A DNA stretch of 64,000 nt from Candidatus Zixiibacteriota bacterium (GTDB taxonomy: Bacteria > Zixibacteria > MSB-5A5 > WJJR01 > JAJRUJ01): positions 1-64,000 of the forward strand of contig JAGVQM010000024.1 in the NCBI GenBank assembly GCA_020051695.1, in the 5' to 3' direction. Below the pieces are notes generated by a model. That model ran no database searches. It saw nothing but the letters and a program-made list of their open reading frames with translations, and was not told the origin of the DNA. The translations under genes were made by a program, and so were the position numbers. The number at the start of each line of letters is the position of its first letter. Position 1 is the first letter of the stretch. Below are positions 42,522 to 48,791 of this stretch, piece by piece.

Positions 42522-44618
42522 ATGCAGAGGACGAGTTTTTTGGGCGGCCTGTTACTGGCCGGATTTCTGGTTTGTGGCATGGCCGGCAGCGCGGCACTGG
42601 CCTCCGGGCCGCCGGTTACACGGACCGATGCCGTGGCCGATACGCTGCACGGCCGGGTGATTTCTGATCCTTACCGATGGTTGGAAGACCAGAACAGTCC
42701 TGAAACACGGGAGTGGATCGACCAGCAAAACGCCTATACCCGCTCGATCGTCGATACTATGCCCGGCCGGGAATACCTCGTTCGGCGGCTGGGCGAACTG
42801 CTGAAAACCGACGTGGTCAAGATGCCGACCGAGCGCAACGGCCGGTATTTTCTGATGAAACGCTCTGCCGATCAGGACCAGGCCATCCTGTATATGCGGG
42901 ACGGCATCGGCGGCGAGGACCAGGTCCTCGTTGATCCACACGAGATGAGCGCCGATCATTCGGTGAGCGTGGGTTTGTCGGGGGTTTCCGCCGACGGCCG
43001 GGTGATTGCATATCTCGTCCGGCGAGGGGGAGCGGACGAAGAAGCCATTTTTATCATGAATGTGGATACGCGGGAACACTATGCCGACAGTTTGCCCGCG
43101 GCGGTGTACTTCGGAATGGCGCTGACCGACGATTTGAGCGGTTATTATTATGCTCAACGCCGGCCGGAAGGTCCCCGGGTATTTTATCATGCCATGGGTA
43201 CCGACCCCGGGACCGACCGGATGGTTTTCGGCGAGGGGTACGATGACGAAAAGATCATCGCCTGTGATATTTCGGAAAACGGCCGCTGGCTGCTGATTCA
43301 CGTGTATCACGGCTCATCAGGCCGGCAAATCGAAATCTATTTCCAGGATTTGCATAGCAATGGCCCGATTATGCCGCTGGTGAACGATATCGAAGCGCGT
43401 TTCTCCGGCCAGATTGCGGGAGACCGGATATTTCTCCTCACCGATTGGGACGCCCCCAATTCGCGCATTCTGAGCGCCGATCTGACCAGGCCGGCCCGCG
43501 AAAACTGGACTGAAGTCATCCCGGCCGGGCCGGATGCCCTCGAATCCTGTCTGGCCGCGGGGGGCAAATTGTCCGTTGTGTTCATCCGGAATGTCCAATC
43601 GGTGGTGAAAATATTCGAACCTGACGGCACCTTTGTCCGGGAAATCGAACTGCCGACCATCGGGACTGTCGATCAAATTTCCGGCCGGTGGGCGAGCCCT
43701 GAGCTGTTTATCTCTTTTGAGTCGTTTCATTATCCCCCGACCATTTTCCGTTGCGATCTTGCCCAAAATACGCGGGAGGTGTGGGCCAGACGGCAGGTGC
43801 CGGTAAATACCGATGAGTTCGAGGTCGAGCAGGTCTGGTACACCTCGTATGATTCAACACGTGTCCCGATGTTCCTGGTCCATAAAAAGGGGATCGTGCT
43901 GGACGGCTCGAACCCGGTAATCATGTACGGCTACGGCGGATTTAACATCAGCATGACCCCGTATTTCAGCAACTGGGTCGTGACTTTTGTCGAGCTGGGC
44001 GGGATATATGTCGCAACAAACCTGCGGGGTGGCGGTGAATTCGGCCTGGGCTGGCATGAAGCCGGGATGTTCGAGAAAAAACAGAACACTTTCGACGATC
44101 TCTACGCGGGCGCCGAGTACCTGATCAGCCAGGGTTATACCAGCTCGGGAAAGCTGGCCGTCTTTGGGGGAAGCAACGGCGGGCTGCTGGTCGGCGCGGC
44201 CCTGACTCAGCGGCCGGAGTTGTTCCGGGCCGTCCTGTGTACGTACCCGCTGTTGGACATGCTGCGGTATCATAAATTCCTGATGGGGCCGTATTGGGTT
44301 TCCGAGTACGGTTCCGCGGGAGATTCCGCCCAGTTCGCCTACATCAGCAAATATTCGCCATACCAGAACGTCAGACCGGGGACCAACTATCCGGCAGTTA
44401 TGTTCGTCACCGGCGATGCGGATACCCGCGTTGACCCGATGCACGCGCGAAAGATGACCGCGCTCCTGCAGGCCTCAACCGGATCTGCGGACCCGATCGT
44501 GCTCCATTATGACACGAAGGCTGGTCATTCCGGCGGTACTCCGGTCGGCAAACAGATTGAGGACTATGCAGACCACATGCTGTTTATGTTCCGGCAGGTG
44601 GGGGTTACACCGCGGTGA
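42522..44618 (+). CDS. Prolyl oligopeptidase (S9A family), exported
   Basis: 698 residues with a signal peptide (FLGGLLLAGFLVCGMAGSAALA). The seven-bladed propeller domain is preceded by DPYRWLEDQNSPETREWIDQQN, the S9A N-terminal signature. The hydrolase domain has the nucleophile in GGSNGG (about Ser552), Asp in GDADTRVDP and His in AGHSGG. It cuts short proline-containing peptides and would follow the larger proteases in the periplasm. No dockerin. GACAGGAGGATG gives a good start site; TTGACT at 42382 is a possible -35. A terminator follows directly. Confidence 0.95.
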   Translation: MQRTSFLGGLLLAGFLVCGMAGSAALASGPPVTRTDAVADTLHGRVISDPYRWLEDQNSPETREWIDQQNAYTRSIVDTMPGREYLVRRLGELLKTDVVKMPTERNGRYFLMKRSADQDQAILYMRDGIGGEDQVLVDPHEMSADHSVSVGLSGVSADGRVIAYLVRRGGADEEAIFIMNVDTREHYADSLPAAVYFGMALTDDLSGYYYAQRRPEGPRVFYHAMGTDPGTDRMVFGEGYDDEKIIACDISENGRWLLIHVYHGSSGRQIEIYFQDLHSNGPIMPLVNDIEARFSGQIAGDRIFLLTDWDAPNSRILSADLTRPARENWTEVIPAGPDALESCLAAGGKLSVVFIRNVQSVVKIFEPDGTFVREIELPTIGTVDQISGRWASPELFISFESFHYPPTIFRCDLAQNTREVWARRQVPVNTDEFEVEQVWYTSYDSTRVPMFLVHKKGIVLDGSNPVIMYGYGGFNISMTPYFSNWVVTFVELGGIYVATNLRGGGEFGLGWHEAGMFEKKQNTFDDLYAGAEYLISQGYTSSGKLAVFGGSNGGLLVGAALTQRPELFRAVLCTYPLLDMLRYHKFLMGPYWVSEYGSAGDSAQFAYISKYSPYQNVRPGTNYPAVMFVTGDADTRVDPMHARKMTALLQASTGSADPIVLHYDTKAGHSGGTPVGKQIEDYADHMLFMFRQVGVTPR

Positions 44619-44682: not shown

Positions 44683-44823
44683 CTGCAGGGTATATCCACT
44701 TTCGACGAGAGGGAATGCCGGGAAAGTCAAAGCGACAGCGCTTAAGACCTGCTGCCGACAACCTTCATTCATGCATGGCTGCGGACGGTGCGGGCGCGAA
44801 AAAATGTGCAGAACATGCATTTT

Positions 44824-44833
44824 ATCCTTGACA
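44824..44833 (+). promoter_or_regulatory. Shared upstream motif of the first H1-like gene
   Basis: TTTATC then CTTGACA (44821-44833), about 70 bases before ATG 44901. The second H1-like gene has the same ATTTTATC-TTGACAT word (45459-45473), also about 70 bases before its ATG. A TTGACA -35 is the simplest reading, but -10 boxes are poor (GATGTC here). Confidence 0.45.
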
Positions 44834-44900
44834 TTCTTTCCGCTTATTGCGATGTCGAATCAGATAACGAACGGATACCCTTAACGCAGGGAGGCAGGTC

Positions 44901-45104
44901 ATGGTTGTCAGGAAGGCCGTCAGAAAAGGGGCGAAGAAGGTAGCCAGGAAAAAGGTCGCCAAGAAGAAAGTCGCCAGGAAACCGGCGCGCAAGGCTGCGG
45001 CCAGGAAACCGGCCAAGAAACATTGCGCGGCCAAGACAATGGCCGGGAAAAAGTGCAAGCGGTACACCACCGGCAATTCGAAATTCTGCGCGGCCCATAA
45101 TTGA
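44901..45104 (+). CDS. Histone H1-like basic protein with C-terminal zinc-knuckle motif (copy 1)
   Basis: 67 residues. Residues 1-41 are almost only Lys, Arg, Ala and Val in VARK/AKK repeats, like the lysine-rich tails of bacterial H1-like proteins. The C-terminus carries Cys42, Cys52, Cys63 and His66, spacing C-x9-C-x10-C-x2-H, in the context CAAKTMAGKKCKRYTTGN. It resembles small zinc-binding motifs (C..aT..G..Ck...g..yC..H) in some FCB and chlamydial proteins. DNA or RNA compaction is inferred from the charge. GGGAGGCAGGTC before the ATG, own terminator after. A paralogue follows at 45540. Confidence 0.82.
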   Translation: MVVRKAVRKGAKKVARKKVAKKKVARKPARKAAARKPAKKHCAAKTMAGKKCKRYTTGNSKFCAAHN

Positions 45105-45130
45105 TGATGTCCTGGAACTGATCGACGATA

Positions 45131-45159
45131 GGCGCGGCCGATGCCGCGCCTTCTTTTTG
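45131..45159 (+). terminator. Terminator after H1-like copy 1
   Basis: Arms GGCGCGGC (45131-45138) and GCCGCGCC (45143-45150), loop CGAT, then TTCTTTTTG. Confidence 0.85.
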
Positions 45160-45462
45160 TCATTCCCCGTATCCTGCACCGGCCACGTGCCTCACCTGTT
45201 GCCGGCTCATCAATGATGGGATAATCCGCCGCGCGCGGAACACCCGCCCGAGCGAAGATGGTTCGACATGACCAGGCGTCATGGCCGCGTTGATGTATCC
45301 TTGTGGCCGGGGTCTGTCGTGGTGCCGATGAAGCCGAAAAAAAACTTTAGCGAATAATTGCGTTTGACGTCATTTTCTTCTTGACGGATACATCGGACTG
45401 ACCGATACAGTGAATATGTTTAATGAGTTGGTTGAAAAAGAAATGTGTTGTTTGCACAATTT

Positions 45463-45472
45463 TATCTTGACA
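45463..45472 (+). promoter_or_regulatory. Shared upstream motif of the second H1-like gene
   Basis: TATC-TTGACA at 45463-45472, within ATTTTATCTTGACAT. It mirrors the motif before copy 1 at the same distance from the ATG. The sequence between motif and ribosome site is otherwise different, so the motif itself looks conserved. Confidence 0.45.
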
Positions 45473-45539
45473 TGAGATCAAACAAAGGCAATGTGAAGGA
45501 CAAAGAGAACAGGGAACAACCATTATAAAGGAGGCAGTC

Positions 45540-45794
45540 ATGGTTGCAAGGAAGAAAGCAGCAGGGAAAAAAGTGAAAAAGGCCACACGGAAGGTGGCCC
45601 GGAAGAAAGTGGCCAAGAAAGTAGCCAAGAAACGCGTGGCCAAGAAAAAGACCATGAAGAAAGCTAAACCGGCCAGGAAAAAAGCTGCGGCCAAGAAAGC
45701 GCCCAAGCAGCGTTGCGCGGCCAAGACCGCGGCCGGGAAACCGTGCAAGCGCTTTGTGACCGGCAAAGCAAAATTCTGTGCCGCGCATAAGTAA
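45540..45794 (+). CDS. Histone H1-like basic protein with C-terminal zinc-knuckle motif (copy 2)
   Basis: 84 residues, a longer paralogue of the protein at 44901. Residues 1-57 are Lys/Arg/Ala/Val repeats (VARKKVAKK, AKKRVAKKK) and the end is Cys59, Cys69, Cys80, His83 with the same C-x9-C-x10-C-x2-H spacing (CAAKTAAGKPCKRF, FCAAHK). Length differs only in the number of basic repeats. Translation signal GGAGGCAGTCATGGTTG is nearly the same as for copy 1. Its own terminator follows, before convergent lon. Nucleoid binding is inferred only. Confidence 0.83.
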   Translation: MVARKKAAGKKVKKATRKVARKKVAKKVAKKRVAKKKTMKKAKPARKKAAAKKAPKQRCAAKTAAGKPCKRFVTGKAKFCAAHK

Positions 45795-45814
45795 CGGTTT
45801 GACGGATGAAAACG

Positions 45815-45848
45815 AAGGGTGCGACAATACTGTCGCACCCTTTTTTTT
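45815..45848 (+). terminator. Terminator after H1-like copy 2
   Basis: Arms GGGTGCGACA (45817-45826) and TGTCGCACCC (45831-45840), loop ATAC, then eight T residues. Confidence 0.92.
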
Positions 45849-45904: not shown

Positions 45905-48319
45905 TCACGTGCGTTTGGCCGGCCCGCGTACTGTCCGGTCTTTGGGACTTTTCCCGCCCGGCGATTTTTTGGTGATGCCCGGCAGGGCAATATCCAGCAC
46001 TTCTTTGATGCGCCGTACCGGGATAAACTCGACATTTTTGCGGACTTCTTCCGGGATTTCCACCAGGTCTTTTTCGTTGTCTTTCGGTATAATCACCCGC
46101 TTGATGCCGGAACGGTAAGCGGCCAGCGATTTTTCTTTCAGGCCGCCGATGGCCAATACCTGACCATGCAGGGTGATCTCACCGGTCATGCCCAGGCGCG
46201 GGGCAACAGGTCTGTTCGTCAGCAGTGAAGCGATTGCCGTGGCGATGGTGATCCCGGCGGACGGGCCGTCTTTGGGTGTTGCTCCGGCGGGGACATGGAC
46301 ATGGAAATCGGTTTTGGCGAACATTTCCTGATCAAGGCCCAGTCGCCGGTAATCCGAGCGAATGTTGGTCAGCGCGGCCTTAACCGACTCTTTCATGACA
46401 TCACCCAATGACCCGGTCAGCGTCAGATTCCCCTTGCCCGGCATGGAGGAGACTTCGACAAACAATAAGCTGCCGCCGGCCGAGGTCCACGCCAGTCCGG
46501 GAACGACACCGATTTGTGCCGTCCGATCGATGAGTTCGGGCAGGAATTTGACCGGACCGAGGTATGTATGGAGTTTGTCGGCTTTGATAACCACGGCGCT
46601 CTTTTTCCCTGTGGCTACGACCCTGGCGACTTTGCGGCAGATTGTCGCGACTTCGCGGTCGAGATTGCGCAGCCCCGATTCTCGCGTATAATCGCGAATA
46701 ATCCGCTTAAGGACCGCATCGGAGAAAAGGATGTGGCGTTTTTTCAGCCCATGATTTTCCAGCTCCCGGGGGACAAGATATCGTTTGGCGATCTGGACTT
46801 TCTCCAGGTCGGTGTATCCCGGCATCTCGATGACTTCCATCCGGTCTCGAAGCACGGCCGGAATCGGGTGCAGCAGATTGGCCGTGGTGATGAACATGAC
46901 ATTTGACAGATCAAATGGCACGTCCAGATAATGGTCGGAAAAGGAATTGTTTTGTTCCGGGTCGAGGACCTCCAAGAGGGCTGAAGCGGGGTCGCCGCGG
47001 AAATCCTGGCCGATTTTATCGATCTCATCGAGCATGAAAACCGGGTTATTGGATTCTGCCCGCCGCAGTCCCTGAATAATGCGTCCCGGCAGCGCGCCGA
47101 TGTAGGTCCGCCGGTGCCCGCGGATTTCCGCCTCATCCCGCATCCCGCCCAGCGAAATGCGCTGGAACTTCCGGCCCATCGCCCGGGCGATGGAACGGCC
47201 CAGCGAGGTCTTGCCCACGCCCGGCGGGCCGACGAAGCATAGAATCGGGCCTTTCAGATCGGCTTTGAGTTTGCGGACGGCCAGGAATTCCAGGATCCGT
47301 TCCTTGACCTTTTCCAGATCATAGTGGTCCTCATCGAGGATCGCCAGGGCTTTATTAATGTCCAGAATGTCCCTGGATTTCCGGTCCCAGGGCAGGCAGA
47401 CCAGCCAGTCCAAATAGGTGCGCGAGACGGTATATTCCGCGGCCGAGGGGTTCATTTTCGACAGCCGGTCGAGTTCTTTTTCCGCGGCTTTCAGCGCCAG
47501 TTCCGGCATATGGGCTTCCGCGATTTTCTTTTTGAACTCGTCAAGTTCTTCGGTCCGGTCGTCGCTGTCGCCCAGTTCCCGGCGGATGGCCTTGAGCTGT
47601 TCGCGCAGGATAAACTCTTTTTGCATCCGCCCCATTTCCGTGGCGGCCTCGGATTGGATCTTGTGCGAGAGTTCGAGGACCTCGATTTCCTTTTTCACCT
47701 GCGTGAGCACTTTTTCCAGGCGTGTTTTGATATCAAATGTCGCCAAGATGTCCTGGCGTTTTTCGGTCGAGAGGTTCAAATTGGAGGCGATGAGGTCCGC
47801 CAATTTGCCGGCCTCTTCGGTGTTGATCGCCGAAATTTGCAGGTCCTCGGATAAGTTGGGGGAGAGGGCGACGGCCTGTTTGATCAGTTCATGCGCATGC
47901 CGGACCAGCGCCTCGATTTCCACGGTCGTTTTCACCTGTTCCTCGATCAGCTCCGTCCGGGCCGTAATGAACGGTTCGGAACGTACGATCTCGGTAATTT
48001 TAACCCGTGAAAGCCCCTGGACCAGAAACCGCACCGACCCGTCCGGGAAACGCAGCATCTTCAGGATGGTCCCGACGGTACCCACGCGATAGATTCCCTC
48101 CGGACCGGGGTTTTCCTCGTCCGGCGTCTTCTGGGCGAACAGGCCGATGGCCCGGCCTTTCATAAGCGTCTGATCGATTAACCGGGCATATTTCTCGTCG
48201 TTGATCATCAGCGGCATGACCATTGAGGGAAATACCACGACCGCTTTGGTCGGCAGAATGGCCAGTTCATCGCCTTGTTCTCTTATTTTTTGTAACAATT
48301 CATGTTCCGATTCAGGCAT
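45905..48319 (-). CDS. lon: ATP-dependent protease Lon
   Basis: 804-residue LonA. The N-terminal domain starts [20 protein letters not shown]; the AAA+ module has GPPGVGKT (about 363-370), an intact Walker [11 protein letters not shown] (about 425-434) and sensor-1 ITTANL; the protease domain has Ser687 in DGPSAG and Lys728 in GGLKEK. The start at 48319 has GGAGGTG seven bases upstream; the open frame reaches further into hsp20 but that part is antisense-like noise. It lies 19 bases after the second hsp20, so the two are one operon. This is the conventional Lon of the window. Confidence 0.96.
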
Positions 48320-48338
48320 GACACCTCCACGGACATCT

Positions 48339-48791
48339 TTACTTATCGGTGATTTCGATCTCACGCGCGATATCCGGCGGCGACGCGTGTTTGTGGATCG
48401 CAATTTCCAGAAAGCCATCCTTGTAGGTGGCGCTGACATGGTCCGGATCGGCAGTATCCGGCAGAAGGATGTTCCGCTCGAATCGGCCGTAGGTCAGCTC
48501 CATATTGCGATAGACACAATCGTCGGCTTCCAGTTCCTTCTGCCGTGAACCGCGGATCAGCAGTACGTTGTCCTTCACCCTGATCGAGATTTTGTCTTTG
48601 GCCACTCCGGCGATTTCGGTGCGGACGATAATTTTGTCCGAATACTCCAGCACGTCCGTCGGCGGGCGCCAGATCCGGTTGACCGACAACAGCGGCGAAG
48701 CCCACAAATTGCGAAACTGATTGAACAACTGGTCCATTTCCTCCTGGACCGGGCTGGTACCCTTCCAGGGATTCTTTTTGGGATCATCCAT
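48339..48791 (-). CDS. Small heat-shock protein, Hsp20 family (second copy)
   Basis: 150 residues, clearly different from the copy at 36956. The alpha-crystallin core runs from about residue 42 to 140 (RPPTDVLEYSDKIIVRTEIAGV, ISIRVKDNVLLIRGSRQKE, ERNILLPDTADPDHVSATYKDGFLEIAI). N-terminus is amphipathic and Trp-rich (NPWKG, FRNLWASPLL). GAGGAG precedes ATG 48791. Located immediately upstream of lon: a holdase coupled to degradation, matching the other copy coupled to refolding. Confidence 0.92.
   Translation of the reverse strand: MDDPKKNPWKGTSPVQEEMDQLFNQFRNLWASPLLSVNRIWRPPTDVLEYSDKIIVRTEIAGVAKDKISIRVKDNVLLIRGSRQKELEADDCVYRNMELTYGRFERNILLPDTADPDHVSATYKDGFLEIAIHKHASPPDIAREIEITDK

Follow-up and report, generated by a model that had tools for sequence, protein, structure and literature searches.

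Two genes lying in tandem on the plus strand of the window, the 64,000-nucleotide stretch of Candidatus Zixiibacteriota DNA analysed here, encode small proteins in which a basic arm precedes a short cysteine/histidine motif (Table 1). A preliminary description, made from the letters alone, had singled out both open reading frames, and they were recovered at the same coordinates and on the same strand; of the two arm lengths it gave, 41 and 57 residues, the first stands and the second is corrected here to 58. It had also reported that the C-terminal motif is spaced identically in both proteins, and each indeed carries an exact C-x9-C-x10-C-x2-H motif, hereafter called the finger or the head, the chain stopping a single residue past the finger histidine. 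The two proteins are 69% identical, and a GGAGG ribosome-binding site lies 5-6 nt ahead of the ATG of each gene. On its 5' side the pair has a prolyl oligopeptidase gene (42522-44618) as its neighbour, and on its 3' side a convergent gene for a LonA-type protease (45905-48439). A search of the 3.5 Mb source genome returned these two copies only (E≤0.001). The same genome contains two HU genes.

Table 1. Positions, in the window, of the two genes, the parts of their products and the flanking signals.
Feature	Positions	Strand	Remarks
TTGACA, -35-like element of gene 1	44828..44833	+	begins 73 nt upstream of ATG
Gene 1, lysine-arm C3H-finger protein, 67 aa	44901..45104	+	translated ORF, profile search, pairwise alignment
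Gene 1 arm, 41 residues, Lys/Ala/Val/Arg-rich	44901..45023	+	
Gene 1 head, C42 to H66, C-x9-C-x10-C-x2-H	45024..45098	+	
Intrinsic-terminator-like hairpin 3' of gene 1	45130..45151	+	
TTGACA, -35-like element of gene 2	45467..45472	+	begins 73 nt upstream of ATG
Gene 2, lysine-arm C3H-finger protein, 84 aa	45540..45794	+	translated ORF, profile search, pairwise alignment
Gene 2 arm, 58 residues, Lys/Ala-rich	45540..45713	+	
Gene 2 head, C59 to H83, C-x9-C-x10-C-x2-H	45714..45788	+	alignment; AlphaFold2 model of tail
Intrinsic-terminator-like hairpin 3' of gene 2	45814..45843	+	scores on both strands; common to the convergent lon gene

The spacing of the head occurs three times in the six frames of the window, in the two genes and in one unrelated match. 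In an alignment of 67 relatives the three cysteines, the histidine and one threonine are invariant, an invariance that is partly built in, the rows having been selected by the spacing pattern and the relatives gathered by searches using these residues; some identical tails are represented once in the alignments. The strict pattern used for the census, which allows no extra cysteine and demands at least six K/R/H, left 17 loci out. Twelve of these keep the exact spacing and have an additional cysteine, while in the other five (L021, L023, L190, L192 and L195) no finger spacing was found, L021 being an arm-only match. The preliminary description had called the head a zinc knuckle joined to an H1-like arm. 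An arm carrying a metal-type head is a fair account of these proteins; a zinc knuckle is not. CCHC zinc knuckles are spaced C-x2-C-x4-H-x4-C, and that assignment was rejected on the spacing, which is the C3H spacing of WRC fingers; the predicted fold resembles the CCCH finger of Mcm10, with weak statistics.

Profile searches with the Cys/His head, in the line suggested in the preliminary description, returned relatives of the finger in bacteria and archaea, with variable arms. Matches were found in 74 of the 132 genomes of the phylum (profile A2, built from 22 tails; E≤1e-3). The remaining 58, which include the sole other genome of the same family that was examined (G001), gave no match, a patchy distribution that counts against an architectural protein. 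With profile A4 (67 members; E≤1e-5) the motif was found in 39 of 200 genomes from the class of a Thermodesulfovibrionia (Nitrospirota) genome, and in 3 of 37 from the order of a Methanomassiliicoccales archaeon. A named collection yielded 182 pattern matches, from which 57 loci were returned; 22 belong to Zixibacteria or Zixiibacteriota, and the rest include Nitrospirae, Calditrichota, Methanomassiliicoccales, Omnitrophota, Deltaproteobacteria and Flavobacteria. Most matching genomes have one copy, and a tandem pair is unusual. Phages and plasmids gave no match in tblastn, a search in which queries this short have little power. A lysine-rich candidate nucleoid-associated protein (NAP) of Methanomassiliicoccus luminyensis (WP_019177984.1), present throughout its order according to the available part of PMC7613761, was considered and appears to be a different protein; it is set apart by its distribution, the finger occurring in 3 of 37 genomes of that order.

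The head is constant, and the arm is not. Among 71 proteins, a list from which four Flavobacterial proteins were omitted, the arm ranges from 3 to 101 residues. A period-5 repeat (z>2) was detected in 26 of the 42 arms of at least 30 residues, KVAKK being the commonest pentamer; for the arms of genes 1 and 2 the period-5 z was 2.9 and 2.4, respectively. The 64 distinct Zixibacterial proteins have a median of 24.5 residues ahead of the finger, and at least 20 in 36 cases; in five of the 64, which are longer, the finger lies close to the N-terminus. In three longer Zixibacterial proteins (L193, L194 and L196) the finger comes first, and after it stands a hydrophobic stretch that, judged by eye, resembles a membrane helix. 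The corresponding median for the Nitrospirota class (n=16) is 8 residues, with at least 20 in a single protein, and the shortest members of all, L097 and L106, have 30 residues in total, scarcely more than the finger. Some members have a second basic stretch C-terminal of the finger. The expectation of variation only in repeat number was thus too narrow, since arms run from nearly nothing to about a hundred residues, repeat types differ and some members have basic C-terminal tails as well. Arms unrelated among relatives had been named as an outcome that would speak against the original idea, and this is half the case: pentamer repeats are common to long arms, yet most Nitrospirota members are nearly armless. 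The repeat arm appears to have been added to a minimal finger protein, and the short form may be ancestral. One Zixibacterial protein (L021:1501-1665 and flanks) has a similar Lys/Ala arm without the C3H head; the remainder looks by eye like a SANT/Myb-like domain. Such arms apparently occur with several different heads.

Of the members for which scores were tabulated, none passed the cut-off of a curated Pfam or NCBIfam family. The tails of some members gave sub-threshold matches to WRC, zf-primase, DUF5763 and TRM13-CCCH in Pfam, and to HGG_STG and the GvpO N-terminus in NCBIfam. The WRC finger (PF08879) of plant GRF transcription factors, also called HRT, has the identical CX9CX10CX2H spacing and is reported to bind DNA (PMC7380329, in the part available), but there it belongs to transcription factors with a QLQ domain, whereas the Pfam scan of the window proteins showed neither QLQ nor a WRC match. 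The best tabulated member reached 21.3 bits on WRC against a cut-off of 28.6, and none of 38 genomes searched (0/38) had a match above it, so membership was rejected; the whole-genome WRC search is itself uninformative, as 11 of 14 control genomes gave similarly weak matches and the source genome none. HGGxSTG (NF041373), DUF5763 (PF19067) and the N-terminal region of GvpO (NF045806) cover the same C...C...C..H stretch in prokaryotic proteins, but all stayed under their cut-offs. Gene 2 scored 14 bits on HGGxSTG (cut-off 29 bits), gene 1 was unlisted, and both lack the tail that follows the histidine in that family; DUF5763 (cut-off 26.3) did not match the window proteins and gave 9.1-19.2 bits for the tabulated relatives. 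The best E-value of all profiles on the finger, 8.7e-7, belongs to GvpO, on which ten members scanned singly scored 13.9-23.7 bits. These scores are under the cut-off of 52 bits; a gas-vesicle function was rejected, and the likeness is taken as a shared finger. Neither HGGxSTG nor DUF5763 was found mentioned in the open-access PMC papers searched.

The second eukaryotic finger of interest is the CCCH finger ZnF1 of Mcm10 (zf-primase, PF09329; cut-off 28.8), on which the gene 2 finger scored 14.6 bits and the gene 1 finger was unmatched; a bare finger gave sub-threshold Pfam matches to both zf-primase and WRC. The gene 2 tail (mean pLDDT 80) and the 30-residue L097 protein (pLDDT 90) were modelled with AlphaFold2, and the models were compared with 350,542 PDB chains by Foldseek. 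Both models returned the same four chains, all Mcm10, with TMq 0.62-0.68, E 0.61-8.5 and VIA Z 3.0-3.1, values that are not significant alone; nothing else was listed in the PDB fold search, and PDB sequence searches with two profiles gave no match. That two models and a sequence profile, none of them significant alone, all point to Mcm10 is suggestive. In Mcm10 itself, a replication factor, the finger is adjacent to an OB fold, and ZnF1 binds ss- and dsDNA jointly with that fold (PMC5333062, in the sections available). Compared with predicted viral proteins, the L097 model had 143 matches within E≤10, of which none reached E≤0.001; TMq rises to 0.91 among the 50 listed, and those with names include HNH endonucleases and a phage 'WRC protein'. 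The tail also shows a weak likeness to portions of the profiles of phage terminase small subunits and HNH proteins, and the same C3H tail ends a Flavobacterial nuclease of the SNase family (L111:3455-4114). The profile matches, the fold matches to Mcm10 and to viral proteins and the SNase tail together place the head among nucleic-acid-handling proteins. Elsewhere in Flavobacteria, a small, apparently exported protein (L105:3234-4084) combines an Ada-like region with the same C3H tail and adjoins an SNase-family nuclease, and loci L107 and L109 are of the same SNase nuclease/C3H-tail kind.

The flanks of the gene are conserved as well. Among 60 Zixibacterial members (those with full flanks and proteins of at most 140 aa), many of which come from related genomes and are not independent, 54 have TTGAC[AT] within 120 nt upstream; shuffles gave 4.7, and 19 of 169 control ORFs have it. 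In 50 of the 60 a terminator-like hairpin lies no more than 90 nt downstream, against 0.2 in shuffles and 16 of the 169; the controls are other ORFs, mechanically called, from such loci and from the window. Both counts exceed those of the controls, and in Zixibacteria the gene is thus a conserved stand-alone transcription unit. In the Nitrospirota class the upstream element was found in 1 of 16 members and the terminator in 8 of 16. A count of Shine-Dalgarno sequences was set aside as circular, starts having been chosen by Shine-Dalgarno. A T-tract followed by TTGACAT, recognised by eye, recurs upstream of most Zixibacterial members (window positions 44820-44865 and 45460-45500), in many cases with no clear TATAAT where one would be expected; it might serve as a special promoter or as a site of autoregulation. 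At ten loci (L079:1115-3568, L080, L081, L082, L084, L086, L089 and L093-L095) a gene for a LonB-like protease lies directly upstream of the finger gene, with a peptidase-MA/beta-propeller gene on the other side in several of them. A shared Lon neighbour as synteny with the window was rejected, the window gene being of the LonA type and that of L079, the one relative scanned, LonB-like.

These data lead to the reading towards which I lean, if by a modest degree: that the proteins are small, nucleic-acid-binding, H1-like architectural proteins with a C3H head, in which the finger docks and the arm neutralises and bridges. From sequence and models I infer zinc, fold, nucleic-acid binding and compaction alike. 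The C-terminal motif would fold about a single zinc ion as a compact WRC/Mcm10-type finger, and this finger would dock on DNA (or RNA). The N-terminal Lys/Ala/Val pentamer arm would be a disordered polycation, neutralising and compacting the nucleic acid, a role also proposed for the repeats of Hc2 and AlgP; its length would set reach and charge, and could shift as repeats are gained or lost, the head being retained. Each gene would have its own promoter and terminator, as is usual for nucleoid-associated proteins. I favour this architectural role because the head is constant and the arm variable; because long arms share pentamer periodicity with the DNA-binding Hc2; because both models match Mcm10 only among PDB chains, with sub-threshold zf-primase and WRC matches beside them; because the tail ends an SNase nuclease and resembles terminase small-subunit and HNH profiles; and because the gene stands alone, as the upstream element and terminator indicate. 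Single-gene operons are a criterion for archaeal NAPs (Hocher et al., PMC7613761, in the part available), together with small size and basic charge. The window proteins have 67 and 84 residues, net charges (K+R-D-E) of +26 and +37, and their own terminators and promoter-like elements.

The chlamydial histone H1-like protein Hc2 (PF07382; analogues in Bordetella, Burkholderia and others) is reported to bind DNA and has a lysine-rich pentamer arm that varies in length by repeat number; an arm of lysine-rich pentamers is present here too. Hc2 differs in having 165-237 residues and, in the available sections of PMC2848022, no C3H finger is named; PF07382 (cut-off 40 bits) scored 16.6 and 8.9 bits on the window proteins. 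Besides the patchy distribution, the Mcm10 match that is not significant on its own and the scores below every curated cut-off, two further facts count against the architectural role. Two HU genes are already present in the genome, so that the lysine-arm finger proteins would be accessory; and, since most Nitrospirota members lack an arm, compaction cannot be the function common to the family.

The main rival, which I regard as unlikely though by no means negligible, is that these are RNA or ribosome proteins, for instance ribosome-associated or RNA-chaperone factors, whose finger recognises rRNA, tRNA or mRNA and whose arm anchors them. Small size and basic tails are also typical of ribosome-associated proteins, and one 31-residue member scored 18.0 bits on the CCCH finger of the tRNA methyltransferase TRM13, under a cut-off of 20.9. 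On the other hand, the sole PDB fold match is a DNA-binding Mcm10 domain, and translation genes are not prominent among neighbour clusters common to at least three loci (by eye, few scanned). Less probable is an organiser of granules or polyanions, in which the arm would bind polyphosphate (and DNA) and the head would tether. This idea draws on AlgP of Pseudomonas, in which disordered H1-like Lys/Ala repeats are likewise joined to another domain; as described in the available text of PMC9239181, AlgP is found at polyphosphate granules and sets their spacing, and its repeats bind DNA. Yet AlgP is a 352-residue protein with KPAA repeats in a C-terminal arm and a helical head rather than a finger, no adjoining polyphosphate gene was identified, and arm-poor relatives do not fit. 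Least probable is a relic of a phage or mobile element, a leftover finger module of little function with an arm acquired by slippage: it would account for the weak matches to phage profiles and the fold matches to giant-virus and phage proteins, but the ligands and spacing preserved in distant relatives, the promoter-like element and terminator preserved in most Zixibacterial members and the ten loci with the same LonB-like cluster indicate selected chromosomal genes.

Variable-length pentamer arms are already known from Hc2 (PMC2848022, in the part available), and plants have C3H fingers with the same spacing. What would be new is the union of the two, the stand-alone finger of 30 residues and the spread over bacteria and archaea; no curated cut-off was reached. 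The preliminary description knew of no account of an arm-finger union, and no description of an H1-like or lysine arm with a C3H finger was found in the open-access literature searched, the part of the search on Zixibacteria histones and nucleoids being limited to the matches listed. A wider proposal, which I put forward tentatively, is that bacteria and archaea possess a free-standing counterpart, some 30 residues long, of the eukaryotic WRC/Mcm10-type DNA-binding finger, and that in Zixibacteria it gained H1-like polycation arms reaching about 100 residues. The outcome would be a class of architectural chromatin proteins that has gone unrecognised, in which the constant finger sets the target and the evolvable arm sets compaction. 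If true, the small chromatin proteins of bacteria and archaea would gain a class, overlooked in curated family libraries on account of a domain of fewer than 30 residues and an arm of low complexity. With one conserved head and arms from 3 to 101 residues long, the family would offer a natural series in which to gauge arm length against DNA compaction, and the protein would be a minimal model for the type of C3H finger found in plants and in the replication factor Mcm10.
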